Shown in pieces: positions 3,245 through 49,002 of a stretch of 52,794 nucleotides of DNA (position 1 is its first letter; each line of letters starts with the position of its first letter). The DNA is from Chrysophaeum taylorii (lineage: Eukaryota > Sar > Pelagophyceae > Pelagomonadales > Pelagomonadaceae). Where the stretch lies: the NCBI GenBank assembly GCA_029834535.1, contig JAQMWT010000008.1, positions 1-52,794 on the forward strand. Direction: 5' to 3'. Position numbers and translations under genes: made by a program. Under the pieces are notes generated by a model. The model ran no database searches, was not told the origin of the DNA, and saw nothing but the letters and a program-made list of their open reading frames with translations.

Positions 3245-6200
3245 ATGGAGACGGCGAGCGCATATCTGCTAGGGAAACTCATCAACGACTTCAAGGATTT
3301 TGCGGACGCCCGGGTGACGGCCGACGACAAGAGCAAGGAGTTGCGCGTCAGCATGGCGAACCTCTACGCCACGCTGCTCAGCATGCAGGATCAAAGGGAC
3401 AACCTGAGCGTGCACGTCCTCGAGTCGACAAAGGTGACGCTCGACAGTGTTTTGGAAACGTGCCGCGAGTGGAGTGGCAAGTCAAGCTTCGGCAAGTTTT
3501 CGGACGGCACGAAGTACGCGAAGCTGTTCAGGCGGCTCGAGGAAGCGCTCGATAAGCGCGTCAGCGAGCTCGCGCTCGCGAAGACGGCCGCGAACGGGGA
3601 CGTGCTGAAGTCTCTCCGGCGCAAGCAGAACTCGATCTTCGCGCGGATCGAAGGTGGAAACGAGATGATTTACGAGTTCGACCCGCCGGGCCCGGACAAC
3701 AGGCAGAGGGCATCGCTGCTGGGTCAGGGCACGTTCGGGCGTACGCACCGGGTAAAAGAGCGCGGAGGGGTGGGCGTGCAGCGAGCGATGAAGATCATTG
3801 ACGTCGACCGCGCGCGCGACGTCGGGGTCGATATCACAAAGCTACACGTCGAGGCCAGACTTTTGGCCAGCCTCAACCATCCGAACATCGTGAGCTACGT
3901 CTCGAGCTTCGAGTACGGCAGCGACTTCTTCATTATCACGGAGTACGTGGGCGGCGGCCACCTCGGGCTCCAGATCGGCAAGTCGCAAGATGTGGCGACG
4001 TTACGTTCGTGGGCGTGCCAGATATTCAGGGCGTTGGAGTACATTCACGCGCAGGGCGTGCTCCACCGAGATCTCAAGCCGGAGAACATCCTCCTCGACG
4101 TTGGGAACCTGTTCATCAAGCTCTGCGACTTCGGCCTCGCTGCTCAGATGAGGACGGCTGGCCTGAGTTCGTTGACCGGTACGATGAACTACATGTCGCC
4201 GCAGAAAGCTACGAACAATCAGCGGTATGATGCCGCCGATGACATGTGGGGTTCCGGCTGCCTGCTCGGCGAGCTGCTCACGGGCACGCCACTCTACGTG
4301 CGTTGCCCACGAATGTCGTTCTTCAACGACACGCCGGCTGTCATGGATGTCTGCACCCAGAGTCGCGAGGCGGACGGGGTCCTCGGTGCCATCGTGTGCG
4401 ACCTCCTCAAGACAGTTCCGACGCAACGTCCGTCCGCGGCCGAAGCCGCAAACCGTCTCGAGGGAGGCCGTGCTGCGGGTTTCGAGCGCTTGCCTCGAGT
4501 TTCTGAAGAACCAAAGCAGGGTGAGGAGCAGGCCGAAAGGGTGTGCCCCGAACTAGAAGATGAACATCGACGCGAAAAAGGTGAGCGGCAGGCGATTGAG
4601 GCCAAAAGGATGCGCGACGACGAGATGGCGTCCGAGGAAGTGCGCGAACCACAAAAAAACGAGGCGGCGGCGCGACAGGCTGCTGAAAAGAATCGACTCG
4701 ATGAGGCTGATCTGCAGGTGATGGAGTCTGAGGCCATTCGGGTGCGTGCTGAGCGGGTCGCGGCGATCGAAGCCGAGCGGATGCGCGCCGAGCGGGTCGC
4801 AGCGATTGAGGCCGATGCCGAGCGTGTGCGCGCAGAACGGGAAGCAGCGATCGAGGCCGAGGCCGAGCAGATGCGCGCCGAGCGGGTCGCAGCGATTGAG
4901 GCCGATGCCGAGCGTGTGCGCGCAGAACGGGAAGCAGCGATCGAGGCCGAGGCCGAGCAGATGCGCGCCGAGCGGGTCGCAGCGATTGAGGCCGATGCCG
5001 AGCGTGTGCGCGCAGAACGGGAAGCAGCGATCGAGGCCGAGGCCGAGCAGATGCGCGCCGAGCGGGAAGCAGTGATCGAGGCCGAGGCCGAGCAGATGCG
5101 CGCCGAGCGGGAAGCAGCGATCGAGGCCGAGGCCGAGCGGATGCGCGCTGAGCGGGTCGTGGCACTCGAGGCCGAGCGGATGCGCGCCGAGCGGGTCGTG
5201 GCGATCGAGGCCGATGCCGAGCGGATGCGCGCAGAACGGGAAGTAGCGATCGAGGCCGAGGCCGAGCGGATGCGCGCCGAGCGGGTCGGGGCAATCGAGG
5301 CCGAGACCGAGCGTGTGCGCGCAGAACGGGAAGCAGTGATCGAGGCCGAGACCGAGCGTGTGCGCGCAGAACGGGAAGCAGCAATCGAGGCCGAGGCCGA
5401 GCGGATGCGCGCAGAACGGGAAGCAGCAATCGAGGCCGAGGCCGAGCGGATGCGCGCAGAACGAGAAGCAGCGATCGAGGCCGAGGCCGGGCAGATGCAC
5501 GCCGAGCGGGTCGGGGCAATCGAGGCCGAGACCGAGCGGATGCGCGCAGAACAGGAAGCAGCAATCGAGGCCGAGGCCGAGCGGATGCGTGCAGAACGGG
5601 AAGCAGCAATCGAGGCCGAGGCCAAGAAGATGCGCGCCGAGCGGGTCGGGGCACTCGAGGCGGAGACCGAGCGGATGCGCGCCGAGCGTATGGCTGCTAT
5701 CGAGGCCGAGGCCGAGCAGATGCGCGCCGAGCGCATGGCTACTATCGAGGCCGAGGCCGAGCGGATGCGCGCCGCGCGGGTCGAGGCTATCGAGGCCGAG
5801 GCCGAACAGATGCGCGCCGAGCGGGTCGCCCGCGAACATCAAGTTCAACGACAACGCGAAGAGGCCGCGCGGAAGGCGTTACCAAGTTACGGAGCGAGCG
5901 AGCGCTTCCTCCGAAATTGCAGAATGACCTGGCGACGGGTCCTAGAGCGTCTCGAAACGAACGATTGCGATTTGAGGGAGCTCGATCTTTCGTGCGAACG
6001 CGGCGCGTTAGGAATTTTTATCAATGCTAGTTTGGGTTTCTCGGATTGACTTTGTATTGTCCGTAGTAATAGCGGAATCGGCGACCAGGATGCGGCCCGC
6101 CTCGCAAGATCCATCGAGAAGAACACGTCGCTCCAGGTGCTCTATCTCTCGTGCGTTTCCCTTCGGCGTTTTCCCGAGGACTGAAAACGATGATTTTTTT

Positions 6201-8518
6201 TTTTCTGCAAGGATTTCCCCAAAACGCCCCGATTTTGCCGACGAAATTTCGCAGGTACAACAGTCTTGGCGCCGAGGGCGTGGCACGCCTCGCAGAGTCC
6301 CTCGAGAAGAACAGGTCGCTCCAGACGCTCTATCTCTCGTGCGTTTCCCTTGGGCGTTTTCGCGAGAACTGCGAACGATGTATATTTTTTTTCTGAACTT
6401 CTTATATCCAAAACCCCCGATTTTGCCGACGAAATTTCGTAGGTACAATAGTATTGGCGCCGAGGGAGCGGCACGCCTCGCAGAGTCCCTTGAGAAGAAC
6501 ACGTCGCTCCAGACGCTCCATCTCTCGTGCGTTCCCCGTCGGCGTTTTCTGCGAACGATGTAATTTTTTTTTCTGCACGGATTATCCCAAAACCCATAAA
6601 TTTTACCATCGAAATTTCGCAGGTCCAACGGTATTGGTGCCGAGGGCGCGGCACGCCTCGCAAAGTCCCTCGAGAAGACCAGGTCGCTCCAGACGCTCGA
6701 TCTCTCGTGCGTTTCCCTTGGGCGATTTTCGCGAACGATGTAATTTTTTTTTTCTTCGCGGATTATCCCAAAACCCATAAATTTTACCATCGAGATTTCG
6801 CAGGTACAACAGTATTGGCGCCGAGGGCGCGGCACGCTTCGCAAAGTCCCTCGAGAAGACCAGGTCGCTCCAGACGCTCGATCTCTCGTGCGTTTCCCTT
6901 GGCCGTTTTCTGCGAACGATGTAATTTTTTTTTCTGCACGAATTTTCCCAAAACCCCCGATTTTGCCGACGAAATTCCGCAGGGGGAACAACATTGGTGC
7001 CGAGGGTGCCGCGCTCCTTCTAGAGAAAAATAGGTCGCTTCAAACGCTAGATCTCTCGTGCGTTTCCCTTCGGCGTTTTTGCGAGGACCGAGCGAGACTT
7101 AACTTTATCCTGAACTGATCTTTCCAAATCCTCCTAATTTCCCGGCGAAAATTCGCAGGGAGAACAGTATTGGCGATCTGGCAGTAGCGCGCCACGCAAA
7201 GTTCCTCGAGAAGTACAGGTCGTTCCTCGAGAAGAACAGGTCGCTGGAGACGCTCATTCTCGCGTGCGTTTCCCGTCGGCGAGGATTGCGAACGATTTAT
7301 TATTATTTTTTGGACTGATTTTCCCAACCCCGCGATTTTTCTATAGCGATGAAATATATTTCGCAGGCACAATGATATCGGCGCCGAGGGCGTAGCACAC
7401 CTCGCAAAGTTCCTCGAGAATTACACGTCGCTCCTGACGCTTAATCTCGGGTGCGTTTCGCGTCTGAGTTTTTTTGTCGCGAGGAATGATAAGTCTTTTT
7501 TTTTTTTTTCTTCACAGATTATCCCAAAACCCATAAATTTTACCATCGAAATTTCGCAGGCGTAACAGTATTGGCGCCGAGGGCGCGGCACGCCTCGCAA
7601 AGTGCCTCGAGAAGAACAGGTCGCTCCAGACGCTCAATCTCGAGTGCGTTTTCCCCGTCGAAGCTGATTGTGAGCACTGAACGATTATTTTTAGTTCGGA
7701 ATTAATTTTCCAAAGCCCCCTTTTTACTGACGAAATTTCGCAGGTGCAACCGTATCGGCGATCAGGGCGCTGTCCACCTCGCAGAGTCCCTCGAGAAAAA
7801 CACGACGCTCCTATCGCTCGATCTCCAGTGCGTGTTTCCCGTCGGCGTTCTCACGAGGACAGGCCTTTTTTCCCAAAATCCCTGAGTTAACTAGCGGAAT
7901 TTCACAGGGCGAACAGTATCCGCGATCAGGGAGCGGCACGCCTCGCAGCGGCCCTCGAAAAGAACGCGTCGCTCCAATCGCTCGAACTCCAGTGCGTGTT
8001 TTTTTTTTCTGAGTTGATTTTACCAAAAACCCCCTACTTACCTCCTACGTTTCGCAGGGAAAACTTTGTCGGCTATCCGGGGGCTTTGCGCCTCGTACGT
8101 TCCCTCCAGAAGAACACGTCGCTCCAGGAGATCAATCTTGCGTGCGCATTTCCAGGCCGGCGTCGGGAAATTTTTCGTTTTTTTTTCCAGCAAAAATTCG
8201 TATATCTCATTCAAACAACACCGGCGTGCGACGCAGGATTATGCGTCTCGACGAAAACAAGATTCAACATCTTCGTTCTATCGCCAAAGACGCCGGGAAG
8301 AGTATCGGACTTTAAAGATACCGACCTCGGCACGGCGGTGTGCTCGCTTAGATCATTCCGTTTTCTTTTTACATCCGACGTTCGAGGTACCGTTTCGCTC
8401 TTTGATAGCGACAAAAAGTCCCTGCTCGAATGGCGAGGAGTATCGAGAAAGTGGAATTCCGGAAAATGAAAGTCGTCCCCTAAGTCAGTCAGTGCAGAAA
8501 AATTTAATAAAACCGTAG
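3245..8518 (+). CDS. Helical-bundle / protein kinase / long-helix / LRR protein, 14 exons
   Basis: Proposed join: 3245-5991, 6067-6150, 6255-6338, 6443-6526, 6623-6706, 6804-6887, 6983-7057, 7159-7263, 7367-7450, 7560-7643, 7744-7827, 7908-7991, 8058-8141, 8191-8518. The total is 4095 nt, in frame, 1364 residues. The start is the first in-frame ATG; an upstream in-frame TTG is not used. Residues 1-140 are an alpha-helical bundle resembling MLKL/HeLo-type four-helix domains. Residues 155-430 are a kinase: LGQGTFG at 159, HRDLKPEN at 274-281, DFG at 295-297. The usual APE reads SPQ, so the activation-segment Glu is lost. Residues 440-890 are E/R/A-rich 15-residue repeats, a coiled coil or single helix. 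LRRs of the RNI type (NSIGAEGAARLAESLEKN) follow, one per exon. The last exon encodes a basic tail without a recognised domain and is the least certain part. Introns begin GTGCG and end CAG or TAG. A sensor-kinase role is inferred. Confidence 0.8.
4740..5835 (+). repeat. In-frame tandem repeats encoding the long charged helix
   Basis: The coding sequence repeats a 15-residue motif of the form AERMRAEREAAIEAE about 24 times. Around 4788-5057 a 90-nt compound unit occurs three times with essentially no change, so expansion is recent. The repeats keep long open frames on other strands and frames, which should not be taken for genes. Confidence 0.85.
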
Positions 8519-18688: not shown

Positions 18689-19611
18689 TTATGACCTCGG
18701 AGCGCCAGAGATAGTGGTGGTTTTATTGCAGCTACCTCGTGACGAGCGTGGATGAGAGTTAATATTACACGAACGTGATCAGCGCCTTAAATTGTGGTTG
18801 GCGAAGACGCTCACCGCCTATAGGAGGCGGGCGCGTGTGTGACGTCGGGTGACGTCGAGCCTCCTGTTGTTAGTTAGAAAGGGCGCTCTGACCACCTTCT
18901 TTCTTCGGCTCAGGGATTATTCGCAGCACAATCAAAATCCTCCAGGTAATAGGTCTACGATGTTGAATGATTGACGGGCCAACCGCTAGCACGACAATAG
19001 CGCACGAAGAGGAACAAACAACACCCCGGCTGATTCCCCTCTTGAAAGCGCGCCCATTACAGACAGACAGGTCTCTTCTAATTCTCCAGTCGCCACGCCA
19101 ATAATGCCCCCCCCCCTCTGAGAGAGAATAAGCTTGCCTGCTGGTTCCTACGTCGTCTGTCAAAAGAATCTCCTTCCTGAATGTAAGCGGCATACTACCA
19201 TCCATCCATATGGCAGCGACCGGCTCGGCACGTACCGCCTCTCTCATCGTTGCCTTTTTACCGCGTCGCGCGCGATCCCGGTAGATAAGAGCCACGACGC
19301 GGCGGCGTCCGGAGTTTTTTTTTCCAGTAGTCTTGAGGGGTCAGAGCAATGGGGGGTCATCCCGACCGACACCTTTGAGAAAAAAAAAACAAACAATGTT
19401 TTTGCCAAGCGAGCTGCTGGTTCCGTCGCGACGTACAAAGGTGGGTGGTGAAACTTCAATTACGGGGCAGTTCTTTCAGTCAGTACCCTATAAAGAACGC
19501 GCAGAATGTCGCAGCTTCAACGGATCTTTCCCATCGATCGTGTCGAAGAACAATCCTAATAACGGAGCGACCCCCCGTTTTTTTTCGTTTTGTTGCGAGA
19601 TCACAAATCAT
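18689..19611. other. Intergenic region between eS7 and NDH-2
   Basis: About 920 bp should hold the eS7 3'UTR and the NDH-2 promoter and 5'UTR. Short GTTAGTTAG runs occur near 18866. There are short open frames on both strands but none with a recognisable protein. Poly-T and poly-A tracts lie near 19315 and 19380. Confidence 0.4.
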
Positions 19612-21150
19612 ATGATGTTCGCGCTGCTGTTGTTGCTTTTCGGAGTTTGCCAGGGGCTCGCGCCCCCCGCAAGCACCACCACCACCACCACCAGGCCGCG
19701 GGCCCCGAAGAAGAATAATCATGATGATGAAGCGCTGGATACACCACCACCACCGCCTGAGACGAAGAAGAAGAATAACGTGTGTCCGCTGGCGACGGTC
19801 GTGGAGGCATCCCTCGACACCGTTGAAGACGTGACGATGCACGCGCGGCGGCAGCTGGAGAGAGAAGAGTTGGGCGAGGAGAAGCTGGTGATTCTCGGGA
19901 GCGGATGGGCGGCGCACGCGATGCTCAAGGTCATCGACGCGTCCAAATTTCGCGTCACGGTCGTCTCGCCCGTCAACCATTTCGCGTTCACGCCAATGCT
20001 GCCGAGCGCCGCGACCGGCACGGTCGAATACCGTTCGATGACCGAGAGCGTGAGCCGGTCGAATCCGTACGTCGAATACGTCGAAGCGTCCGCGCGAGCG
20101 GTAGACGCGGAGGAGGGGAAGGTGTCGCTCGACGACGGGACGAGCATCGAGTACGACAAACTCGTGTGTGCGGTCGGGGTCAGAGTGAACGACGCCGTGC
20201 GCGGCGCGGAGCATTGCTTCCGGCTCAAGCAAGTCGAAGACGCGGTGGCTTTGCGTCGGGCAATTTCGAGGAATTTTGAAAAGGCGGCGAGAACGGGGGA
20301 CAATCGGCTGGTCACGTACGTGGTAGTCGGCGGAGGGCCGACGGGCGTCGAACTCGCGGGCGAACTCTGCGATTTCATAAAGGACGTGGGGCGCCGCTTC
20401 AAGAAGCTCGCCCCGAAAGTCGTTTTGGTGCACGCGGGGGCGCAGCTCCTCCAGCAATTCGAGAACCCGCAGCGCGTGGAAGCGCTCCGGGCTCTCCAAG
20501 CTCAAGGCGTCGACGTGCGATTGGGCGTGAAAGTCTCGGAAGTAAGGGACGGAGAAATGGTCGTGGACGACAACATTTTGCCTTTTGGGATTGCGATTTG
20601 GTGCGCCGGAACGATGGCCCAGCCCTTTATGGAAACTTTTCTCCGAGGTCTACCCTCAGAAGCAAAGGCCGGCCGAGGCTTCGTCGCGGTCGACGACTGG
20701 CTGCGCGTCCGAGGTACCCAGGACATCTTCGCCTTGGGCGACTGCGCGCGGCTCGAGCGGTTTTACCCACAAACGGCCCAAGTCGCGGCGCAACAAGGGG
20801 CATTCCTGGCGCGCCACCTCAACCGCGGCTACGACGGCTCTACCCCCCCTCGCTTGCCCCATTCTTCCCCCAACTGGGAGCAGTTTTGGGTCTCCGTTGT
20901 CCGGAGAGCTTCCGAAGCTCCGACGTTCGACTTCCTCGACCTCGGGATGCTGGCATACCTCGGCGGCGGCGCCGCTCTCTCCCAGCTCCGCTTCGGCGAT
21001 CTCCCGCTCGGCGCCTACTCGGGTTCGGCGGCCTATCTTCTCTGGAAGTCAGTTTACCTCGTCAAACAAGTCGCCACGAGGAACCGCGTCCTCGTCACCT
21101 TCGACTGGTTCAAGACGGCGCTCTTCGGCCGCGACATCACCCGCCTCTGA
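19612..21150 (+). CDS. Type II NADH dehydrogenase (alternative NADH:quinone oxidoreductase)
   Basis: This 512-residue protein belongs to the rotenone-insensitive NDH-2 family, which passes electrons from NAD(P)H through FAD to quinone without pumping protons. The FAD dinucleotide fold is LVILGSGWAA near residue 97. The NAD(P)H fold is YVVVGGGPTGVELAGEL near residue 240. The second FAD contact is DIFALGDCAR near 370, followed by AQVAAQQG. The C-terminal FDFLDLGMLAYLGGGAALSQ segment and the ending LFGRDITRL are typical of membrane-anchoring ends. I chose ATG 19612 because it opens with a hydrophobic segment (MFALLLLLFGVCQGLAPP), although the frame is open further upstream. The segment resembles a signal peptide, and its junction resembles plastid-targeting presequences of stramenopile algae; a mitochondrial or ER route is also possible. 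A low-complexity T/P/K-rich linker follows to about residue 60. Confidence 0.93.
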   Translation: MMFALLLLLFGVCQGLAPPASTTTTTTRPRAPKKNNHDDEALDTPPPPPETKKKNNVCPLATVVEASLDTVEDVTMHARRQLEREELGEEKLVILGSGWAAHAMLKVIDASKFRVTVVSPVNHFAFTPMLPSAATGTVEYRSMTESVSRSNPYVEYVEASARAVDAEEGKVSLDDGTSIEYDKLVCAVGVRVNDAVRGAEHCFRLKQVEDAVALRRAISRNFEKAARTGDNRLVTYVVVGGGPTGVELAGELCDFIKDVGRRFKKLAPKVVLVHAGAQLLQQFENPQRVEALRALQAQGVDVRLGVKVSEVRDGEMVVDDNILPFGIAIWCAGTMAQPFMETFLRGLPSEAKAGRGFVAVDDWLRVRGTQDIFALGDCARLERFYPQTAQVAAQQGAFLARHLNRGYDGSTPPRLPHSSPNWEQFWVSVVRRASEAPTFDFLDLGMLAYLGGGAALSQLRFGDLPLGAYSGSAAYLLWKSVYLVKQVATRNRVLVTFDWFKTALFGRDITRL

Positions 21151-22156: not shown

Positions 22157-22276
<120 letters not shown>

Positions 22277-30546: not shown

Positions 30547-31405
30547 CGAGCCGTAAACGACACGACCTTGGATGCCATCGAGAAGGTAGGTGTGCCCCTT
30601 TTTTGTCAGCAACCAGGACCTGGATGGACAAACCACGTTCGCAGAGTTGGAAAGAAAGAAAGACGCCGAAACTCGCCAAGAAGCTCCGTAGCAACAATGG
30701 TCGATGCAAGGTGCTCGTCAGCAACATTACTCGCTACACCCACGACGTGGGCACCCTCGAGCCCAAGTCCTACACTTCGACAAAGGACGCACAGGTCGGC
30801 CAGTTTGGTGGTTAAGAAGCGAATGTTGCATTTTTAACCAAGCAGATCTACGGCAAGATCAAAATGGAGAGGGGGGCGTTGACGGACGAGCCTGTTGTTC
30901 CGCCGCCGGTGCTTGGCAACACAGGAGCGCAGGGCCCTGGACGCTCGGCGCCTTGTGAGCGACGCTGAGTTGAAGGAAAAGGCGGGACTGCTCTGGCCAC
31001 AAAGCGAGCAAAGCGCCGAGCGAGTGGCGAAACGAGACCAGCTGCCTGTCGACTCTCTTGTTGGCCAGCGAGTCGAGGTGTTGTGTTTGGTCGAGGGAAA
31101 AAAAAAGGCTCGCCGATTGACGGGCAGAAGACTGTCGCCGACGGCCAACCAGCCGCCCGCATGGTCGACTTCGCACCACGTGCTGGTCAGGAGTTCGTTC
31201 TCCCGAGGAATGGAAATAACCACATTGTCGGGTGTTTTCTCTTTCGTGCTGCGTTTTTATTTCTACGTACACTCGAGAAGCAGGCGGTTCCTGCTCGCGC
31301 TCATCAGCGGGGCGCAGACTGGGCCAGTTGGAACAACCCCCATCGACTTTCCCCCGGCGCGGTTCTGACGCCGCCACGAGTTGAATTTTAGATCCGTTGA
31401 ACAAG
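30547..31405. other. Relic coding traces upstream of the K+ channel
   Basis: Plus-strand pieces such as SDAELKEKAGLLWPQSEQSA (near 30960) and VGQRVEVLCLVEGKKK (near 31065) look protein-derived but are out of frame with the following text. No intact gene. The channel promoter should lie in the last few hundred bases. Confidence 0.3.
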
Positions 31406-32221
31406 ATGAAGTTGCCTGCGACGATGCGTCCGGTGGTGGCGCGCGTCCTGCGGACGCCAACGTACGAAGTCGGATCGGCCGTGGCGACCCTCATGTCGTG
31501 CGGGACCTTTGCCGTCGGGACCCTCGACACCGTGCCGCGGGAGATTTTTGATGGAGCGGAAGAACTGTTGAGTGTCTTGTTTGCCGCAGATTTTGCCGTC
31601 CGTTGCTTCGCGAGCCCGAGTCTCGGAGCCCTCGAACTCATCGATCTGGCGAGTTTCCTGCCACTCTTCCTCGAGTCGAACCTGAGCTTTTTGCGCCTCG
31701 TTCGCGTTTTGCGGCTACAACGGCTGCTCTCCGACGTCCAGACGTTCGGAAGGTTCCGCGCGGCCCTCGGGCTCCCGCCCTCCGAGACCACCGAGACCTC
31801 CCTCGAGCTCGCGCGCGTCCTCTTGTCTCTCTTTACGCTCCTCTTCGTCGCTTCGGGCCTCATTTACACGGCCGAACACGAAGTAAACGATTCGATAAAC
31901 GATTTCTTTACCGCGCTTTACTTTGGCCTCACGACCCTCACGACGGTTGGCTTCGGAGACATCGTCCCGGTCACCCCGAACGGCCGCCTCGTCGTCTCAT
32001 TTTCGATCTTGGTCGGCATCGCCGTTATCCCGCTGCAGCTTACGACCCTCGCCGAGTCACTTCTCGCGCCACCAATAGAAGACGCGCGCACGCCGCGACC
32101 AAGCATCCAGGCCCGCGCGGGCAGGCCCCCGCCCTGCCGAGTCTGCGGCGCGCCGGACCACAACAAGGACGCCAACTTCTGCTTCTCCTGCGGCGCGCCC
32201 TTGCTCAAGCCCGTATCGTGA
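31406..32221 (+). CDS. Voltage-gated K+ channel subunit with C-terminal zinc ribbon
   Basis: The protein has 271 residues. Residues 20-115 hold a short S1-S4 voltage-sensor-like region; S4 is RLVRVLRLQRLL with arginines at regular spacing. S5 lies at about 135-155, the pore helix at about 170, and the selectivity filter is TTVGFGD, diagnostic of K+ selectivity. S6 is VVSFSILVGIAVIPLQL. The C-terminal 30 residues contain CRVCGAP and CFSCGAP, a four-cysteine zinc ribbon. Four subunits would be needed to form a channel. The ATG at 31406 is used; a TTG three codons earlier is in frame. At 271 residues it is much shorter than animal Kv channels because it lacks a T1 domain. A zinc ribbon in place of a regulatory tail is unusual. 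Confidence 0.9.
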   Translation: MKLPATMRPVVARVLRTPTYEVGSAVATLMSCGTFAVGTLDTVPREIFDGAEELLSVLFAADFAVRCFASPSLGALELIDLASFLPLFLESNLSFLRLVRVLRLQRLLSDVQTFGRFRAALGLPPSETTETSLELARVLLSLFTLLFVASGLIYTAEHEVNDSINDFFTALYFGLTTLTTVGFGDIVPVTPNGRLVVSFSILVGIAVIPLQLTTLAESLLAPPIEDARTPRPSIQARAGRPPPCRVCGAPDHNKDANFCFSCGAPLLKPVS

Positions 32222-38469: not shown

Positions 38470-41400
38470 TTAGCGTAGTAAATCTAGAGCTCCAGTTGCG
38501 TTGTGTCTCGCACCCTCGCTCCCCGACCTCCTCACTTCCTCGATTATTTCGACACCTCCTGCACGTTTGATCGCGATTTTGTTGTCGTCGTTAAAAGCGA
38601 GATTCCTTAACGCCCCCGCCGCCCCGAATTTGGCCGCGTCGATACCCTCCTTCGCGAGATTGACAAGAACCGGAATCGCGCCAGCCTTCGCGATCGCGAT
38701 TTGGTTTTCGGCATTGACAGCAAGATTCCTTAACGCCTCCGCCGCCCCGAATTTGGCCGCGTCGGTACCCTCCTTCGCGAGATTGACAAGAACCGGAATC
38801 GCGCCAGCCTTCGCGATCGCGATTTGGTTTTCGGCATTGACAGCAAGATCCCACAACGCCCCCGCCGCCCCGACTTTGGCCGCGTCATTACCGCCTTCAA
38901 CGAGTTCGACGAGCACCGGAATCGCGCCCGCCTTCGCGATCGCGATTTTGTTTTCGTCGTTTTTGGCGGCGAGATTCCCCAGGGCCCCCGCCGCATGCTC
39001 TTTGTCCACGTCGCGCCCATCCTTCGCGAGTTTGACGAGCACCGGAAAAGCGCCCGCCTTCGCGATTGCGATTTTGTTTTCCTCGTTCAAGGCGAGATTC
39101 CTTAACGCCCCCGCCGCCCCGAATTTGGCCGCGTCGGTACCCTCCTTCGCGAGATTGACAAGAACCGGAATCGCGCCAGCCTTCGCGATCGCGATTTGGT
39201 TTTCGGCATTGACAGCAAGATCCCACAACGCCCCCGCCGCCCCGACTTTGGCCGCGTCATTACCGCCTTCAACGAGTTCGACGAGCACCGGAATCGCGCC
39301 CGCCTTCGCGATCGCGATTTTGTTTTCGTCGTTTTTGGCGGCGAGATTCCCCAGGGCCCCCGCCGCATGCTCTTTGTCCACGTCGCGCCCATCCTTCGCG
39401 AGTTTGACGAGCACCGGAAAAGCGCCCGCCTTCGCGATTGCGATTTTGTTTTCCTCGTTCAAGGCGAGATTCCTTAACGCCCCCGCCGCCCCGAATTTGG
39501 CCGCGTCGGTACCCTCCTTCGCGAGATTGACAAGAACCGGAATCGCGCCCGCCTTCGCGATCGCGATTTGGTTTTCGGCATTGACAGCAAGATCCCACAA
39601 CGCCCCCGCCGCCCCGAATTTGGCCGCGTCGGTACCGTCCTTCGCGAGATTGACGAGAACCGGAATCGCGCCCGCCTTCGCGATCGCGATTTTGTTTTCG
39701 GCATTGTTAGCAAGAACCCTCAACGCCACCGCCGCCGACTCTCTCGCCGCGTCATTACCACCTTCAACGAGTTCGACGAGCACCGGAATCGCGCCCGCCT
39801 TCGCGATCGCTTTTTTGTTTTCGTCATTGCGTGCGAGTTCCATTAACGCACATGCGACGTGCTGTTTTGCCTCATCACTCCTTGACATTCCAAGCTCGAC
39901 GAGCAGCGGAATCGCGCCCAACTCCCGCAACACGTCCGCATTGGAGATATCGTTTTGGCACAAAAGCACAATCTTCTTGGCGGCACGCGTTCGGATACGG
40001 GCGTCCCTTTTATGGCCCAAATTTGACACCACAGCGTCGATTGACCGTCCACCACGAAACAAGGCAGAAACTGCCTTCCGACCAAAAGCTAGCATTGTCG
40101 AGCCTTTTCGTCGTTGTCCAGGCGCTTCACCACGTCCTTGCACACCGGAACCGATCCGCGCACTCGATTCCGGGGAGTGCGCTTCAAGGACCGCATCGAA
40201 CTTTCGCGGGTCGCCACCAAGCGTTTCGAGGGCCGATGCCACTCGTCGTTGAATTAAACCCTTGGCGAGCACGGGGCGATTGGTCGGGTCCTGAGCCCAA
40301 AACTGCTCCAAGAGCTCGACGACGACGGGATTCGCGGCGCGCACGGGAGCCGGGATTTCGGGACGTTGTTTTCGATTGACGACCGCCGCAATAATCTGCG
40401 CGTCTATCTTGCCAGCCCACGGAGGCGAGCAAGTACACAGCTCGTAGCACACCACGCCGAGGGCGTAGACATCGGCCTCTCTCCACGGAGGATCCTTGCT
40501 GCCGTCGAGGAGTCTGCGCGCGCAGTCACTGAGAGGCCGCATGCAGCATAACTTACTCTGGAGCCATCCATTGACAGGTCCCGGGACCTTTGCCTGGCGA
40601 GGTCCCGGTTTTTTGGCCCGTCGCAGTTCTCCACGTGCTCGTCGCTTCCCTGACTTTGGCTAAGCCAAAGTCGGCAAGCTTGATCACGCCTCCAATACAG
40701 ACGAGAATATTCATTGACTTGAGGTCACGGTGGAACACGTCGGAGTTGTGCAAATAGGTCAAACCCTTTAGGATGTCGCTCGCGTACGCGAGCACGAGAG
40801 CCGGCGCGAGAGGCCTCGTCGGCTGGGCGTATAGCCTCGCGGCGAGACTTCCACCGAACGAGCGCTCGATGACCAAACAGACATTCTCCGGACAGAAGCC
40901 GTAAAACGCCAGAATGTTGGGATGGCTGAGCGACTGGTGCAGTATCGCTTCTTGTTGCAGCTCTTCGCGCGCGCTAGCAGCAAAAACCGAATTCAGAACG
41001 TCGAGCTGCTTCAGCGCCACTTGGCACGCGCCCCAGGTCGCGGCGCGGACCACGCCAAACGCCCCCTTGCCAAGGATGAAATCAGTCTCGATGAGCTCGC
41101 TCCGCTTGATTTCGCGCAGAGTATGTTGTTGTTTCCTATAGGACCGCTTGTCTCGAGCCTCGACGCCGCGACGACGACCACGAGATCGTCCGATATGCGC
41201 CTCGATCGCCTCCAGCCTCGCGATCATGTCGGCTTGGCCCTCCTTGACAGCAACTATGATGTCAGATCGGCCCTCCTCGGCGTCCGCGCCCAACCGGCAA
41301 AGTTGCTCGCTGATGTTCTCGCCGAGTTGCTGCAGCCTCGCGTCTACAGCGCTCAGCTCGTCCTCCATCGCCGCCACGTCTTGAGGCGGACGATCTTGCA

Positions 41401-41839
41401 CGGCCAACATGCCTTCAAGGGTGTCGTGTATCTCGAAGAGATCTTTCTGCTCGTCGTCGCGGTCGTCGCGCACGGCGAACATCGTCTCGGTGATTATCCC
41501 GAGCTGGAGCGCCTCGACGCACACCCGAAGCCGCTCGTTGATGTCCTCGAAGTCACCCTTGTGAGTTCCAAGTGCGGCGCCGATCGCACGCCCGTACCAT
41601 TTGGCTTGCTGATATTTCTTGATGAGGCTCTCAGCCTCGCGGACGACCGCGAGCGTCTGTACGAGCGCAATCTCCTTGTCCGTCGTTCGCGCGTCATCTC
41701 GTAGCGCCCCGAGCGGGCCGATAAGCGCGTGCAGACGCTCCCCGAGCCGGCGACAACGGCGCTTGTTAGCCTTGACCTCCAATGCGATATCGTACGCCTT
41801 TTTGACGACGTCGATGATGATCAGCGCCGTCTGCGCCAT
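38470..41839 (-). CDS. Helical-bundle / TKL-type kinase / armadillo-repeat protein, 2 exons
   Basis: Join on the minus strand: 41839-40557 and 40513-38470, giving 1108 residues. Residues 1-145 form a helical bundle close to the MLKL N-terminal pattern (NKRRCRRLGERLHALIGPL, then EAESLIKKYQQAKWYGRA and DFEDINERLRVCVEAL). A coiled linker follows. The kinase spans about 250-560: glycine loop GKGAFG at 257, lysine K277 in VALK, HRD at 370-372, DFG at 390-392, APE at 426-428, then ADVYALGVVCYEL. All catalytic residues are present, so activity is likely. About 12 ARM-type repeats of 41-42 residues (AKAGAIPVLVNLAKEG type) fill 600-1100 and should form a binding solenoid. The 43-nt intron splits the codon of the APE glutamate; without it both reading frames stop. 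A sensing or scaffolding role is inferred. Confidence 0.88.
38730..39477 (-). repeat. 372-bp tandem duplication inside the ARM array
   Basis: The segment 38730-39105 recurs at 39102-39477 with an offset of 372 bp and almost no differences. It encodes three consecutive ARM repeats (the KEGT, FPVL and VEGGND types), so the array grew by a triplet duplication recently. Shorter-range similarity of single 123-bp units extends across 38590-39850. Confidence 0.9.
40514..40556 (-). other. 43-nt spliceosomal intron in the ARM-kinase gene
   Basis: It begins GTAAGT and ends GCGCAG. Removing it restores APE and an unbroken frame to ADVYALG with normal kinase spacing. A 28-nt alternative ending at an upstream CAG would also keep frame but gives APD and a longer insert, so the 43-nt version is preferred. 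Confidence 0.75.
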
Positions 41840-41900
41840 GTGCTCAGAACTTTCGATCCCTGTTCTTTGTATGTTCTCAAGGGTTTTCTTTTATTTCTAC

Positions 41901-42243
41901 AAGTGCAGGCCAGTAAGTTCGCCAGTAAGTTCACCTGGTCCCAATCTCTAACCCCAGTAAGTTCACCTGGTCCCAGTAAGTTCACCTAGTCCCAATCTCT
42001 AACCCCAGTAAGTTCGGCGTAAGCCCACTCGTGCTCACATCCACTCACCCCACTCTCCTTCGAGCTCGTCGCTCTCACCTCCGCCAATCTAAGCTGCTTT
42101 GATCCGTACACGCCGCTAGCCTTTGCGTTCACTCTAAAACCCCAGTAAGTTCACTTGGTCCCAGTAAGTTCACCTGGTCACTAAGTTCACCTAGTCCCAA
42201 TCTCAAACCCCAGTAAGTTCACCTGGTCCCAGTAAGTTCAACT
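41901..42243. repeat. CAGTAAGTTCACCTGGTCC minisatellite, first block
   Basis: Units of the form cagtaagttcacctggtcc, alternating with caatctctaaccc, occur irregularly at 41908-42020 and again at 42131-42243. Between them lies a copy of the dispersed repeat found at the 3' end of the RT element (about 42036-42140). The block starts about 70 bp upstream of the ARM-kinase start codon. Confidence 0.8.
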
Positions 42244-42244
42244 A

Positions 42245-42930
42245 CAGTGCGCGTGTACACGCCGGGAGGGGGCTTATCGGTATTGCGCAGCACGTGTGGG
42301 GTAGGGTGGAGTCGTCGACTCAGAAGAGGATATCCTCGGGGTTGCCGATCGACAGAGAGCCACGTAGAGCTGGACGTGGCAGAAGACGGGCTTCGCCAAG
42401 AGGACGCCGACCTCGCGGGGCGTCTGGCCCTGGCTCTTGGTGATCGTTTGGCGTCGGCGGGCCTTACGGGATACAGGTTGGAGGAGCCTCGGTGACAACG
42501 ACACGATCGATCATGTATCTGGTACCGTTGCAGTGGCCGTGCGACGGGTCGAGGTTGCGAAGACTTTAAGCTCGCGATCAAAGTCAGCATGCCGTTGGTT
42601 GTCAGGGAGTTCAAAACTCGACTCTTGAGAGCGAGGCGTCGTCTTCCGACCCAACCTAGTCGGTCGAAAAGAACTCCGACGCCTCGTCTCCGGGAAAAAA
42701 AGGCCGCGGTCATGCGCGCGTTGTCAGCATCGACAACATCGTTTCGACGGGGCGTGAGAATGGCGCGCTGAAAGAGCCGCCGCGGGTCGTGGAAATAGTC
42801 TGCGAGGTCGCCGTAGACGGCTTGGAGGATCAATGTGTGGCTCGCGGGCCCACATGATCCTTACCCTAAATCGAGGGACAAACAAACAGACAGACAGACA
42901 GACAAACATCTGTCGATTAGTAGTTAGGAC
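42245..42930 (-). mobile_element. Helitron-type (PIF1-like) helicase C-terminal fragment, copy 1
   Basis: The minus strand encodes the end of a Helitron Rep-helicase. It reads AVYGDLADYFHDPRRLFQRA then ILTPRRNDVVDADN (near 42833-42720), followed in another frame by QTITKSQGQTPREVGVLLAK then PVFCHVQLYVALCRSAT (near 42460-42350). These match the conserved RAILTPxNxxVDxIN and TINKSQGQTL...PVFSHGQLYVALSR motifs. The shift between them and the changed histidine/glycine residues show a decayed copy. No replication-initiator domain is present. Confidence 0.8.
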
Positions 42931-43130
42931 AAGTGCAGGCCAGTAAGTTCACCTAGCTCACACCAACTCCTTTGAGCTCGTCGCTCTCGCCTCCGCCAAT
43001 CTAAGGCGCTTCGATCCGCACACGCCGATAACCTTTGAGTTTGCTCTAAAAACCCTTTACTCTAAAAAACCCAGTAAGATCACCTGCTCCAACCCCAGTA
43101 AGTTCACCTGGTCCCAGTAAGTTCACCTAC
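42931..43130. repeat. Spacer between helicase copies: dispersed repeat and minisatellite
   Basis: Contains a further copy of the RT-element 3' repeat (about 42950-43050) and a short block of cagtaagttcacctggtcc units (about 43070-43130), repeating the arrangement seen upstream of copy 1. Confidence 0.7.
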
Positions 43131-43800: not shown

Positions 43801-43835
<35 letters not shown>

Positions 43836-43856: not shown

Positions 43857-44858
43857 TATCCAACAACCACGGGACAGACAGTTCCCCGACAGTTCATGTG
43901 GGGGTGGGAAACTCGCACTAACGGTCGTTTGATGTCTGAGCTTCGCGATGTGGGCCCTTCTTCGCCCGTGATTACGCGGCCCGTGTGCCGTGCGTGGTCG
44001 TGATACGGTTGTCGGAACTCCGCCGACGCAAACCGAAGCATGTTGGTCGGCCACCGCCGAGGCCATGGACGTCGACTCGAGCAACGCGACCGCCTTACAA
44101 GCGCCACCACCCAGCTAAGCCGTCGAAACCGAGGAATACGAAAGACGCAATGTTCGAGCTGCGTCGGTACTTCGAACGCTGTCGGAGAGGACCCCCTTGG
44201 GGTTCTGGTGTCGACACTCCATTTCGACAACGAGTTTCTCAGTGCGAAGCTGCATCGCGTCCATCGGACGCAGCTCGGCGAGCTCCAGCTCCTCCAGCTC
44301 TGTCGACTCCTCTTCTCCGACATCCTCTTTCACGCCGCCCTCCCTCGCCGCTTCCTCGGGAGACACCATATTGAGCGTTGTCGTTGTTAATAATGAGGAT
44401 TACCGTAGGCACGGGGCAGAGCCCCAAGAAACGAAATCCATATTGCGGCCTCCAAAGCCACTCAAGGGTTGCGCTTCGAAGGTCCGGGGCTGTGACTTTG
44501 GTGCGTGACGGCACCCAGATGAAAGCGAGCTCGGCGCCAAAGCATGGAGTGGCCGGCGGGTACGGTGCGGGCTGGCGGCTGAAAGAGGACCTCGACGTCG
44601 GCTTTCGTCACGTCGAGGTCGCTGCGCCGATTCAGCTCGTCAACGAGCGCGGTCTTTTTTTGGACGGACATCGCTGTTCAGGAATTCAACGCTGATGGGA
44701 CCTTCCTTCGAAGACGTGCCGATCAGTCGCTGGACACCGAGTCTGGATGACCTGGTATTTGAGCACGACGGCAGAGTGCACTACACATCCTGTGTAAGCG
44801 TCGAACTTGAGCAGGCTGCCATCACAGTACATAGATGGCTCTATCCGCAGCAGCCTGG
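43857..44858. other. Gap with short minus-strand coding traces
   Basis: A minus-strand frame, 44671-44462, begins MSVQKKTALVDELNRRSDLD and resembles the start of a small helical DNA-binding protein, but no full domain follows. Another (44369-44115) is acidic and helical (TELEELELAELRPMDAMQLR). Both may be fragments of the mobile DNA next to them. Confidence 0.3.
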
Positions 44859-45018
<160 letters not shown>

Positions 45019-45659
45019 GCGCTCGCAACGAGCGACACTTAATGCTAGTGTCTTTTCGCACACCAAAACAATAGAATTAATTCTAGAGCTCGCGCTATAA
45101 AACCAGAGCCGAGAGAGAAGGTTTCATGAGCAGAAGAACAAGTCACTTGACCCCAAACACTTTCTTAAAAGTCCTGGGACTTGGTGGCGTGGCTTGACAC
45201 GGTCCTGCGAGGCGGCGGTGCTGCGGCGCTGGGACGTTGACGTGCGGCGGAGATATCGAGGGTGCCTGCCCCATGGCTCAGGACGCACCTTTTCTTTCGA
45301 GGTGGGGTTTGGTGGCGTCGCTGTTTCGGGACGACGAGGGCTACTATCCGATTTCCCCTGGTGTCGAAGCTGTCGTCCGTTGAGGAAGTCATGGACGCGC
45401 CCGGAGATGAGGTCGATACTGGACTTGGCGGCGAGGACCGCCTCGAAGGTCAATAAGGAGCTGAAACGCAGGTAGAGCTACTGTTCTAGGGTGAGTCGCT
45501 GGGAGCGTGGTTTGTCCTTGGCGCAAACGGCAGCGCGAGGCGGCGGTCAGCGGGTGCAACGCTGGACCTCGATGTAACTAAGTAACTAACCCTAGTGATG
45601 GATGAGTTGGAGCCGTTAAAACAAACCGTTGATAAAACGTGGAAATTTTCATCATCAAA
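45019..45659. other. Gap, one weak minus-strand ORF
   Basis: A minus-strand frame 45453-45124 (109 codons) starts with TFEAVLAAKSSIDLISGRVH and then becomes low-complexity basic sequence. Probably a fragment; no family recognised. Confidence 0.25.
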
Positions 45660-45860
45660 ATGTTGTCCGCGTTGCAAGCGTTGGAGATCCTCGCGCCGAT
45701 CGCCGCGGGTGTCGTCGCTCTGATCGGGATCGTGGTGCTGACCAAGGGGCTGAGGAAGTGCCACTTTCAACGGCTCGAAAAGAAGTGGAGCTTGGATTCG
45801 ATGGCCGTTGACGACGTCGAGTCCGAGGAAGTTGTGATCGAGCGGCAGCTAAAAAACTAG
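45660..45860 (+). CDS. Small single-pass membrane protein
   Basis: The frame from ATG 45660 encodes 66 residues. Residues 9-30 (ILAPIAAGVVALIGIVVLTK) form a strong transmembrane helix. It is followed by a basic stretch (GLRKCHFQRLEKKW) and an acidic C terminus. This pattern predicts a tail in the cytosol by the positive-inside rule. I recognise no family. The clean helix and charge pattern make a real gene plausible, but an exon of a longer gene is possible. Confidence 0.4.
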   Translation: MLSALQALEILAPIAAGVVALIGIVVLTKGLRKCHFQRLEKKWSLDSMAVDDVESEEVVIERQLKN

Positions 45861-45933
45861 GAGTATTTGTTTTTGATCGTGGGGGGTCGGGGAGGTCAGA
45901 GGTCTGCTGCTGCTGCTGCTGCTGGAGGGGGCG

Positions 45934-46260
45934 ATGGGGGTCGCGAATCCCGAAGAACAAGGGCTTTTTGGCGGCCGTAGAGGAGGAGGTGCCGGACCAC
46001 CCGTGTCGGAAGAAGAAGAAGAAGAAGAAGGAAATATCAGAGATCGTCGCTCGAAAATTTCGTATTGGGATGTGCTTGACGACGCGAAGGAAGGTTCAAA
46101 ATCGTACGAGGTCTCGCGATCCTGCGGGGGGTTTACCGATTTTTGCCGCTTGGACGAAAAAAAAAACGACCCCCCCGGAACGGTTCGAGGGTTGAGCAAA
46201 GATTCAAATTTTTTGCGACGGTTGAGGAGGCAACGGCGTATCCGTCGTCGAAAATCATGA
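45934..46260 (+). CDS. Unrecognised ORF, 108 residues, low complexity
   Basis: The plus-strand frame has a Gly-rich start, a run of glutamates encoded by a GAA repeat (about 46008-46029), a middle part (KISYWDVLDDAKEGSKSYEV) that looks protein-like, and a strongly basic end (LRRLRRQRRIRRRKS). It might be a nucleic-acid-binding tail or a chance frame. The opposite strand is also open and Ser/Pro-rich. Confidence 0.2.
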   Translation: MGVANPEEQGLFGGRRGGGAGPPVSEEEEEEEGNIRDRRSKISYWDVLDDAKEGSKSYEVSRSCGGFTDFCRLDEKKNDPPGTVRGLSKDSNFLRRLRRQRRIRRRKS

Positions 46261-47508
46261 TGATGGAGCGCGAGCGCGGGAGGTGTTCGTCAGAGAATGG
46301 AATTCCTCAGAAGTTCCGTTTGTCGTACAATTCTCTTCGAACTAACGACCGATCGATATCTGCGCCCACCGCGCCTCGTGAAGGGCGACCGTGCGTACAA
46401 CTTCCCGACCTCCTCCACATCCGCTGGCGCGTTCCGTGATCGATCCCTCGGCGCGCGAACGTCGAGAATTAAAAATCCTGCTTCCAAGCCTCGGATCACA
46501 TGGTTCTTGTACTTGAAAACTGCCGGGATTAATTATTATTACGGAAGTCGTTGCGGTCGTCCAGCCATAAGAAAAGCTCTTCCTCACTCCGAGCCCGCGC
46601 GGGCTCGGGCTAAACCCGATATCAACACCTCAAGCAAAGAATAATGACAGCAGGCGTTGGGAAAGAAATAATATCACACTCGTGGAAGGGACCCCCAGCG
46701 CCACGAGACCTGCAATCCAATTGCGGGAGTTCGCTCCCTAGGGGAAAAAAAAAGACCTCTTCGACGACAAGTACTTGACGATAATATCTTCGAGGATTAA
46801 TTAGGAACTGCCGAGGCGATTGAATAAGAGCCTCCTGCCGATTTGAAAGTTGAGAGTCGTATTTAATAATTAACCGCACACCGCCCGCCCGCGGTACGTT
46901 ATTTTGGTCGAATGTGAAAAATTTTCGCATCAAAGATGATGATGATGATGATGAGCAATGGTGATGTTAAAAGTGATGGCTCGCGGCCACGAGGACATCC
47001 CCCTCAAACTGCCACGTTGGTTGGCACAATTAATTAATTAATTAATTAATTACCAAGCCCCAGGTTTGAAGAGTTTGTCAAATAAGCGCGAACTTTCTGC
47101 AGTTGTTTTTTCACGGCGCAGTAGGTTGAAATTCGGGTGCCTGCCTGCCTGCCGAAAGTTTTCGAGTTTTCGCTATGCATTAAGTTTATACCTAAACCCC
47201 TCTTTGATCGTGGTGGTTGGTGGTGGTGAGAGTTCATCTCTGTGTAGTTCGTGCCTGTCTCGCGGTGCGATTGTGCTGAAGACAGGACGCACCAGTCTCC
47301 AGAGCTATAGAAGCATGGACTCCAATTAGAGAGTTGTCCCAACAGAGATGATCCACTGCAAGGTGATATAACAAGGTAGAACTACTCTCGGAACGAACGA
47401 CGAACCCGGCTTTCGATTTCGCAATCCAAGACTTGCTCGAGCCGCCCGGCCGCCCGGCCGCGATCTCGACGTTAGATTTCAAAAATAAATTTCGGCCCAA
47501 AATTTACG
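46261..47508. other. Intergenic, no supported gene
   Basis: Contains a 20-bp perfect palindrome at 46589-46608, a GAT repeat (about 46935-46954), a TTAA-type repeat (about 47029-47053), and short frames. The last part should hold the 3'UTR of the TPR gene. Confidence 0.4.
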
Positions 47509-49002
47509 TCACGCGCGTCTCGTTTTGAGGCGGTGATATTTCTCGCGGGCCGCACCGTTTTCTGGGTCGGCTCGGATCGCGAGAAGGTATTCTCGCTCTG
47601 CCGAGTCGTAGTCCTTCCTTACCTTCTCGAGCAGGAGGCCGTAGCTCGCGTGGACGATAGCGTCGTTTGGGTCCGCGCATATCGCGGCGACGTACTCGCG
47701 CTCGGCCGCGTCGTAGTCCTGCCGCACGGTCCAGAGTAGGATAGCATAGTTCGCGCGAGCCTTGGCGTAATCGGGCTTTGCTCTAATCGCCTCGACGTAC
47801 TCGCGCTCGGCGCCGTCGTAGTCGGAGCGAACAGCCTGGAGCAGCGAGCCGTAGTTGTTGTGGGCCTTGGCGTTGTTCGGATCGGCGTGGATTGCGGCTT
47901 TGTACTCGCGCTCGGCACCGTCGAAGTCCATCTTCGCCGTCTCGAGCAACGAGCCGTAGTTGTACCGAAAGTCCGAGCGCGTCGGCTCGCGGCTAATCGC
48001 CGCCAAAAACTCGCGTTCGGCGCCGTCGTAGTCCTTCCGCACGTCCCGCAGCAAGTTTGCGTAATTGTAGTGGGCTATCGCGTTCTCGGAATCCCGAGCT
48101 AACCCCTTCTCGTAGGCCGCGAGCTGGTCGGAAGCAGATCCGCCAGTTTTTTCCAGCGAAAACGCAATCGCAAACCACGCGCCCGCGTGGGCACCGTCCT
48201 TGGCGACGGCTGCTCGCAGCGACTCGAGGGCCTCGTCGTACTTCTCGAGTCCGTACAGCGCCATGCCCGCCGCCACCAGCGACTCTGTCAGACAACGAAT
48301 ACGCGCGGAAGCCTTCCGGATCGTGTCGCGCGCCCCGGCGTTGTCGTCTCCCGCGAGCTGTTCGACGGCCGTCAATACCACGTCGTCGTCGTCGTCGTCG
48401 CTCCGTCGTCGTCTACAGCCTATTGCGAGACTGCGAATCACGCTCTGCGCGCTTTTTGACTGTTTGGAGTTTACGAGCATCTCGAGAATGCGGTCGAGCT
48501 TTTCTGCGTTCTCGCGCGCCACGCGGTTCGTCTCGAGCTCGACGACCGACCGCACCTGTTCGACGCAATAATGCGCGGTCTCCATGCGCTCGGCGAACTC
48601 GTGATGCCAAATAACTTCTCTCGCTTTCCTCGAGAAACCGTCCCCGTCCTGCGTGACGTGCTCGCACACCTCGATCAATTCTCGCACCGCGACGATCGCC
48701 CGTCGCACCACCCCTTCTTCCACCACCACCGAAACGACCCGCCGTTTCTCCTCGAGGAGCCGCGCGATCGACTCGGCCCACTCGAGGTCCTGCGCGATCG
48801 CTTCGGACGCCTTGGCGATCTCGCGCAACTTCCCCACGAGCTTCACCACGACCTCCACGAACTTCCCCACAACCGGCACCACCCTGCTCGCGGCATCTGC
48901 GGTCGCCTCGATCGCGACCGGGGCCGCTCGCCTCGCCGCTTCCTGAATGTCTTTCCGCAAGTTCGCGCGCCATCGCGCCTTCTTCAGGCAGCACGTCATC
49001 AT
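47509..49002 (-). CDS. Helical-bundle / TPR-repeat protein
   Basis: The single-exon gene encodes 497 residues from the ATG at 49002 (an in-frame TTG lies 10 codons upstream). Residues 20-165 are a helical bundle: VGKFVEVVVKLVGKLREIAK, then DLEWAESIARLLEEKRRVVS, RELIEVCEHVTQDGDGFSRK and FAERMETAHYCVEQV. The pattern resembles MLKL/HeLo-type four-helix domains. A linker with six aspartates (a GTC repeat near 48383) follows. From about residue 245 there are six or seven TPR units of 36-37 residues, the last five of the regular DYDGAEREYxxAI type, which should form a peptide-binding superhelix. There is no kinase, unlike the two related genes in this window. Recognition through the TPRs and output through the bundle is inferred. 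Confidence 0.88.
   Translation of the reverse strand: MMTCCLKKARWRANLRKDIQEAARRAAPVAIEATADAASRVVPVVGKFVEVVVKLVGKLREIAKASEAIAQDLEWAESIARLLEEKRRVVSVVVEEGVVRRAIVAVRELIEVCEHVTQDGDGFSRKAREVIWHHEFAERMETAHYCVEQVRSVVELETNRVARENAEKLDRILEMLVNSKQSKSAQSVIRSLAIGCRRRRSDDDDDDVVLTAVEQLAGDDNAGARDTIRKASARIRCLTESLVAAGMALYGLEKYDEALESLRAAVAKDGAHAGAWFAIAFSLEKTGGSASDQLAAYEKGLARDSENAIAHYNYANLLRDVRKDYDGAEREFLAAISREPTRSDFRYNYGSLLETAKMDFDGAEREYKAAIHADPNNAKAHNNYGSLLQAVRSDYDGAEREYVEAIRAKPDYAKARANYAILLWTVRQDYDAAEREYVAAICADPNDAIVHASYGLLLEKVRKDYDSAEREYLLAIRADPENGAAREKYHRLKTRRA

Follow-up and report, generated by a model that had tools for sequence, protein, structure and literature searches.

Kinase genes with an MLKL-type helical bundle in the alga Chrysophaeum taylorii as candidates for cell-death receptors

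We analysed a stretch of DNA from the pelagophyte alga Chrysophaeum taylorii, namely the entire contig C8 (JAQMWT010000008.1, 52,794 bp; hereafter the window). Three genes in it had been predicted to share an N-terminal helical bundle of the MLKL/HeLo type, joined to a kinase with leucine-rich repeats (LRRs), a kinase with armadillo (ARM) repeats, and an array of tetratricopeptide repeats (TPRs), respectively. Spliced translations and Pfam matches showed that the kinase-LRR, kinase-ARM, and TPR genes are all present where they had been placed, and they are referred to here as genes A, B, and C. Genome-wide counts refer to the 70.8-Mb, 697-contig assembly of C. taylorii; the genome as published comprises 71 Mbp in 702 contigs, in a paper that also names the RNA-seq run SRR22085759 (PMC10366177).

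Gene B (38470..41839, reverse strand) consists of two exons (41839-40557 and 40513-38470) and encodes 1108 aa in the order MLKL_N domain, linker helices, kinase, and ARM array, the linker being judged helical by eye only. The MLKL_N domain (41495..41818, reverse strand) was matched by the Pfam family PF22215 with 61.2 bits against the curated cut-off of 27 bits (expectation value, E, 1e-16; model positions 4-111 of 142), and thus counts as MLKL_N by Pfam. An intron of 43 nt with GT-AG borders (40514..40556, reverse strand) lies within the kinase, in which the catalytic motifs were present when read by eye. In the ARM array (38569..39829, reverse strand; Pfam Arm E 4e-85), Tandem Repeats Finder (TRF) detected a 123-nt (41-aa) unit repeated 10.2 times. 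It also detected a higher-order block of 372 nt, corresponding to three repeats, with 92% matches, which we regard as a sign of recent block duplication.

Gene A (3245..8315, forward strand) consists of 14 exons and encodes 1281 aa in the order bundle, kinase, coiled coil, and 12 LRRs, and its spliced translation has a single stop, at the terminus. The original prediction had the correct start, whereas splicing of the 12 LRR exons and the last exon moved the end from 8518 to 8315. The long first exon (3245-5991, forward strand) carries the N-terminal helical bundle of 141 aa (3245..3667), a putative relative of MLKL_N, and the protein kinase domain (3710..4453; Pkinase E 4e-49), whose catalytic motifs GxGxFG, K, HRDLKPEN, and DFG were read by eye. 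The same exon holds a long coiled coil between the kinase and the LRRs, which had been overlooked before and is encoded by a 45-nt tandem unit repeated 23.6 times (4768..5825; TRF). The 12 LRR exons (6067..8141, forward strand) are all in one phase and separated by GT-AG introns in the spliced model. Ten of them are exactly 84 nt long and the other two 75 and 105 nt, all multiples of three. Neighbouring LRR exons were 55-95% identical and neighbouring introns between them 58-91% identical, and TRF detected an exon-plus-intron tandem repeat with a period of 181-188 nt. The likeness of both exons and introns indicates that exon and intron were duplicated as one unit. Gene A therefore has one LRR per exon in the same phase, as algal exon-per-repeat receptors have; its last exon with the stop lies at 8237..8315 (forward strand). 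The paralogues P0007-P0009 of gene A are named C. taylorii proteins.

Gene C (47509..49002, reverse strand) is a single exon encoding 497 aa, in which an N-terminal helical domain of 190 aa (48433..49002, reverse strand), Rx-CC/RPW8-like by predicted fold only, precedes the TPR array. In an NCBIfam scan, kinase and TPR models appeared only under their cut-offs, together with weak other matches. A protein search of 5.8 billion sequences yielded 2, 3, and 1 matches at E <= 0.001, each of them either a C. taylorii protein or the window itself; because this search needs shared 5-mers and similar protein length, it cannot show absence in other organisms.

Subsequently, the occurrence of the module across the genome was considered. 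PF22215 matched 21 places, 11 of them over the cut-off, whereas the 14 prokaryote controls gave one match and none over the cut-off. These 21 places fall into five architectures, which were assigned with the help of a Pfam scan covering seven frames: kinase-ARM, NACHT-type-WD40, ankyrin (ANK), Roc, and FG-GAP. The B-type bundle accounts for 11 places. At six of these (C8, C565, C25, C309:112598, C308, and C309:145220), kinase and ARM repeats were recognized either by eye or from precomputed Pfam matches, and at C74:64858 they lie in a neighbouring frame. The bundle was the only ground for assigning the remaining four (C521, which seems to be a copy of C25, C309:44388, C309:150447, and C309:109067). 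A NACHT-type nucleoside triphosphatase (NTPase; NPHP3_N) was found at three places, with WD40 repeats in both of those scanned. Ankyrin repeats were found at two places, one of which, a frame of about 3,400 aa, also encodes a kinase and NACHT. Two places belong to the Roc type (C207, which contains stops, was placed here through its bundle) and three to the FG-GAP type (C74:62363, a fragment, was likewise placed through its bundle). When the bundle of gene A was used to search the genome, 19 places were found, including the kinase neighbours P0007-P0009, L049, L050, and L054 and, on C356, two bundle-LRR genes in which no kinase was visible by eye. The same search with the gene C bundle gave four places, one of them at E 0.02. 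A mix-and-match of the MLKL-type module, judged from sequence, is thus strongly supported across the genome, and the family is wider than had been recognized from the three window genes.

NPHP3_N was matched at 14 places in the genome and NB-ARC at a single place, which overlaps one of the 14. In the window genes, no NTPase was found in a Pfam scan of P0001-P0004, in which gene A was represented without its spliced LRR exons; hence they lack the plan of nucleotide-binding LRR receptors (NLRs), namely an NTPase between effector domain and repeats. The relatives at C359 and C44 have this plan.

Two details of individual copies were also noted. In L042 and L043 (C203 and C534), FG-GAP repeats are N-terminal to the MLKL_N-like bundle, the opposite order to the other fusions, and PF22215 is under the cut-off in both. 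In a paralogue of gene B (L038/P0006, C309), the HRD motif of the kinase reads HLH in the annotated protein by eye, so that it may be a pseudokinase, as in animal MLKL.

To relate the bundles to each other, they were grouped by type: B (kinase-ARM), N (NACHT-type-WD40), A (gene A type), R (ANK and Roc types), F (FG-GAP type), E (the second bundle of a protein on C563), and C and D (the gene C type and that protein's first bundle). Profiles of the groups were compared with hhalign, with reversed-sequence decoys and four window segments as controls. Groups A and N were aligned over 99 columns at E 9.9e-12 with A as the query and 3e-11 in the other direction, and groups B and N at E 1.9e-9. N-R gave E 5e-4, R-F 1.1e-16, F-E 5.4e-7, and R-E 1.4e-5. 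With A as the query, eight reversed decoys gave E 0.01-0.59, and the best reversed decoy over all queries gave 0.0033, except for R against its own reversal (6.7e-5). The window segments (the coiled coil of A, the TPRs of C, and the ARM array and linker of B) gave E 0.17-0.89 against A; group B matched its own linker at E 0.002 over 9 columns owing to a stretch common to both pieces. The gene A bundle matched bundles of NACHT-type proteins in the same genome at E 1.3e-9 and 1.1e-8, and the core W..KS.F.K...G.KY..LF was recognized by eye in it and in two of these bundles. The direct comparison of A with B was not significant; the gene A bundle accordingly links to MLKL_N by way of the N bundles.

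Hidden Markov models (HMMs) from eight training pools were then run against held-out groups and 3000 shuffled sequences, and the best 16 matches per pool were considered. Training on the bundles of the three NACHT-type proteins gave an HMM that recognized four of six A members at 2e-13 to 1.1e-10, gene A itself at 2.6e-12, and the two short A members on C356 at 0.005 and 0.049. Four of five B members were found at 8e-10 to 0.028, above the best shuffle (0.095), and the fifth at 0.41. When B and N were pooled for training, four of six A members were found at 1.8e-8 to 6.4e-6 (gene A at 6.4e-6; best shuffle 0.16) and F members at 4e-4 to 0.009; both A members on C356 were missing from the 16 best matches. 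Searches of the PDB with pooled profiles led to MLKL. For the A2 profile (11 pooled sequences from groups B, N, and A), the top seven matches were all MLKL at E 1.1e-8 to 8.3e-8, followed by an unrelated eighth at 0.035; for the A4 profile (groups R, F, and E), the top six were all MLKL at E 0.0045-0.011, followed by an unrelated seventh at 0.022. At lax thresholds, PF22215 was detected in nine of 11 A2 members and three of six A5 members. Sub-threshold matches of A2 members to further families within this executioner group comprised PF17111 in one of 11 (E 0.011), which is labelled PigL_N and which we take to be the former Helo_like_N, RPW8 in two of 11 (best E 0.025), and DUF1221 in one of 11 (0.07). 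DUF1221 is described as a domain of plant AtMLKL.

Several results weigh against this relationship. The direct hhalign comparison of A with B gave only E 0.10 and 0.15. The gene A bundle scored 16.5 bits (E 0.0064) with PF22215, under the cut-off, yet this was its best Pfam match. Among the three NACHT-type-protein bundles, one exceeded the PF22215 cut-off (E 4.1e-6), and the others gave 3.3e-4 and 0.0022. An HMM pooled from five groups (BNARF) performed poorly, with a shuffle at 0.0068 outranking held-out sequences. MLKL was not found in the PDB with the A-only profile, whose matches were miscellaneous, mostly helical proteins, and with the N-only profile an unrelated protein (E 0.0094) ranked ahead of MLKL, of which six entries came at 0.14-0.19 and a seventh at 0.81. 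The AlphaFold2 model of the gene A bundle has four helices (4-20, 28-53, 56-76, and 88-137) but is weak (predicted local distance difference test score 65), and in VIA it resembled generic four-helix and de novo bundles. No MLKL was among the 50 VIA matches listed for it, an absence that is no evidence either way, and Foldseek against the PDB gave nothing at E <= 0.001 for the models of the gene A and gene C bundles. Because of the profile links via N, the matches of held-out HMMs, and the pooled profiles topped by MLKL, we nevertheless conclude from the sequences that genes A and B share an MLKL_N-type bundle, for A by way of intermediate sequences. The proposed MLKL/HeLo homology thus stands directly for B, through PF22215, and through intermediates for A.

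For gene C, the profile evidence was different. The hhalign comparisons of its bundle with the other groups gave probabilities of 3.9 and 5.7 and E 0.011 and 0.0067, equal to the decoy level; C-D gave E 2e-8. Gene C was absent from the 16 best matches of all eight HMM pools. Its paralogue C458 appeared in three of the eight at E 0.17, 0.024, and 0.16, level with the best shuffles (0.16, 0.0068, and 0.20, respectively). PF22215 was not among the Pfam matches of the domain, the best being ROH1-like at E 0.0034, under the cut-off, and its profile did not find MLKL in the PDB. A profile link of gene C to the other bundle groups was therefore rejected, since neither hhalign nor the best matches of the HMM pools gave one, and this, too, weighs against a bundle common to all three genes. 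These results would be expected if the N-terminal domain of gene C had no relation to the MLKL bundle and were a separate helical domain for oligomerisation, carried by a TPR scaffold, and we regard this as nearly an even possibility. On the other side, ranks 1, 3, and 5 of the VIA matches to a single-sequence model of gene C, of low confidence, were plant Rx-CC and NRG1 CC-R (CC, coiled coil), with coverage of 110/112 (2.6 A), 101/102 (2.8 A), and 115/118 (5.2 A) residues. Furthermore, in the gene C relative on C563, a second bundle beside the C-type one joins the ANK/Roc/FG-GAP-type group (HMM E 8.4e-9). For gene C, the predicted fold is thus only suggestive of the MLKL/RPW8/CC group. The bundle said to be shared by the three genes was recovered in A and B but not by profile in C, and N-termini that differ without profile similarity to MLKL/HeLo, named beforehand as the outcome that would tell against the idea, were seen for C by profile, not for C by fold and not for A and B.

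The C563 protein (L047:1360-2754, forward strand) is an observation in its own right. It has two tandem helical bundles, the first resembling that of gene C and the second resembling the MLKL_N bundles of the FG-GAP and ANK types, followed by a sub-threshold zinc ribbon.

The best explanation, to which we assign a probability of roughly 0.58, is that genes A and B belong to a superfamily with an MLKL-type bundle that has expanded in C. taylorii, and that they are likely all-in-one cell-death receptors. Their common module is a helical bundle with homology to MLKL's four-helix executioner domain, and it is joined to switches (kinase, NACHT-type NTPase, or Roc) and arrays (LRR, ARM, WD40, ankyrin, or FG-GAP). 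The repeat array would recognize a pathogen- or damage-related ligand, the kinase in A and B, or the NTPase, would then change state, and the released bundle would oligomerise and perforate the membrane, so that the cell dies or signals. Gene C, whose membership we infer, would probably act likewise through its TPRs, without a switch domain. Released MLKL, HeLo, and CC-R domains are described to perforate membranes and execute cell death; ligand sensing, bundle release, membrane attack, and cell death in the A/B family are presumed by analogy.

Alternatively, the bundle may be homologous to MLKL_N and serve only as an adaptor for dimerisation, membrane docking, or effector bait, the output being phosphorylation signalling without perforation. 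The kinases of A and B retain catalytic motifs, unlike the MLKL pseudokinase, and the paper on Pm13 leaves undecided whether MLKL_NTD kills or perceives effectors. The gene A bundle also evolves faster than the kinase, as a bait might: the ratio of nonsynonymous to synonymous substitution rates (dN/dS) was 0.66 for the bundle and 0.42 for the kinase against the C339 paralogue, and 1.11 and 0.45 against the C359 paralogue, the bundle value of 1.11 being a further point against the receptor interpretation. However, the same bundle occurs with kinase, NACHT-type NTPase, ankyrin, Roc, and FG-GAP partners, which a common output fits better than a common kinase regulator, and hydrophobic or amphipathic stretches lie near the bundle N-termini (a weak point, without a control). 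We therefore consider the adaptor role unlikely, though worth keeping in view.

Several genome copies carry stops or broken frames and the repeats were recently amplified, as would be seen if the window genes were decaying, functionless copies of a mobile or repetitive family. All three window genes are open, however, and 13 of 14 paralogue comparisons by the Nei-Gojobori method gave a dN/dS below 1 (the pairs share sequences and carry no significance values); the genes look constrained, with the gene A bundle freer than its kinase, and decay appears very improbable. Least probable of all, with hardly any weight left to it, is that the similarity of the gene A bundle is mere helix or coiled-coil composition bias, as its miscellaneous A-only PDB matches and de novo-like model might suggest, since the reversed and shuffled controls scored far below the A-N match (E 1e-11 over 99 columns), which comes with a common core motif.

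Returning to genes A and B as putative cell-death receptors, we compared them with known systems. Executioner bundles of the MLKL type have been described in animals, plants, and fungi, and bacterial Bell domains are related to them. Animal MLKL has, like gene B, a homologous N-terminal domain, then a linker, then a kinase fold; it is a pseudokinase without an ARM or LRR array, whereas A and B have catalytic motifs and repeat arrays. They thus differ from MLKL proper, a pseudokinase phosphorylated by a RIPK3-type kinase, by the motifs read by eye. Pm13 of Aegilops/wheat, in which MLKL_NTD and a kinase with key residues are described to give mildew resistance, has the order MLKL_NTD, brace, and kinase, like gene B. 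By its sequence, gene B would fit such a fusion of MLKL_NTD and a kinase with catalytic residues, the ARM array being extra, and gene A has LRRs and a coiled coil in addition. Fungal HeLo/HELL/Goodbye NLRs, as described, combine an MLKL-type bundle, a NACHT-type NTPase, and repeats (WD40), like the C359 and C44 proteins, whereas in the window genes the position of the NTPase is taken by a kinase or left empty. In contrast to the fungal HeLo type, the best Pfam match here is MLKL_N, with PF17111 limited to the sub-threshold match given above. Plant Rx-CC and NRG1 CC-R (RPW8) were the best structural matches of the gene C model, whereas gene C has no NB-ARC or LRR in the Pfam scan. Brown-algal LRR-ROCO candidate immune receptors are described with one LRR per exon, 72-nt exons, and 23-residue LRRs (PMC11378527). 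Gene A likewise has tandemly duplicated single-LRR exons in one phase, but they are of 84 nt with 28-residue repeats, and it has a kinase and an MLKL-like bundle instead of ROC-COR.

No MLKL family in stramenopile algae was found among the papers listed in searches of the open-licence PMC literature, and the terms kinase, NLR, leucine-rich, and immun- are absent from the main text of the C. taylorii genome paper (PMC10366177), as far as that text was available to us. Proteins of this kind are already known; what looks new is the lineage, the pairing of a motif-keeping kinase with ARM repeats or exon-duplicated LRRs, and the wide range of fusions. A family this diversified in an ochrophyte alga would mean that the module ranges more widely than is known, or would show transfer. 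The union of an MLKL-type domain, a motif-keeping kinase, and a growing repeat array would compactly link recognition with cell death, and the exon-per-LRR structure would let receptors diversify along a route parallel to the one in brown algae. There is about an even chance that pelagophytes have a lineage-specific immune or cell-death repertoire in which a single MLKL-type module has been paired with five or more kinds of sensor or switch: LRR (exon duplication), ARM (block duplication), WD40 with NACHT-type NTPase, ankyrin with kinase, Roc, and FG-GAP. If true, it would be a necroptosis-like stramenopile system with sensor, active kinase, and pore in one polypeptide. By analogy, the findings suggest, without proving, that golden-brown marine algae possess their own cell-death immune receptors. 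If so, they would provide testable receptor genes in a group whose members are described to form harmful coastal blooms.

Other observations were made in the same genome. GGACCAGGTGAACTTACTGG clusters upstream of gene B (41922-43114) and occurs once upstream of gene A with one mismatch (2714-2733); it was rejected as a promoter element common to both, because its 21-nt form has 3236 exact genome copies (1516 forward and 1720 reverse) and is thus a dispersed repeat. L055, L056, and L057 (C454, C165, and C396) together with L036 have in common a conserved N-terminal domain without a clear Pfam family (72-78% identical to that of the first, with the motif GTGSRTRAASSIA or a close variant of it). 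Three of these four have an NPHP3_N NTPase, and one is the 3.4-kaa MLKL_N/kinase/ankyrin protein. Diadenylate cyclase (DAC) was rejected as the identity of this domain, as it appeared in one of three scanned, at a sub-threshold E of 0.034, and not in a PDB profile search. In L058:2-2020 (reverse strand, C28), a phosphorylase (PNP_UDP_1, E 4e-8) is joined to a NACHT-type NTPase, an arrangement that occurs in fungal NLRs. Within the window, a 605-aa type II NADH dehydrogenase-like frame (19333-21150, forward strand; Pyr_redox_2, NDH2_C) lies between genes A and B, and an ion-channel frame (Ion_trans_2 E 1.7e-17) lies at 31397-32221 (forward strand).

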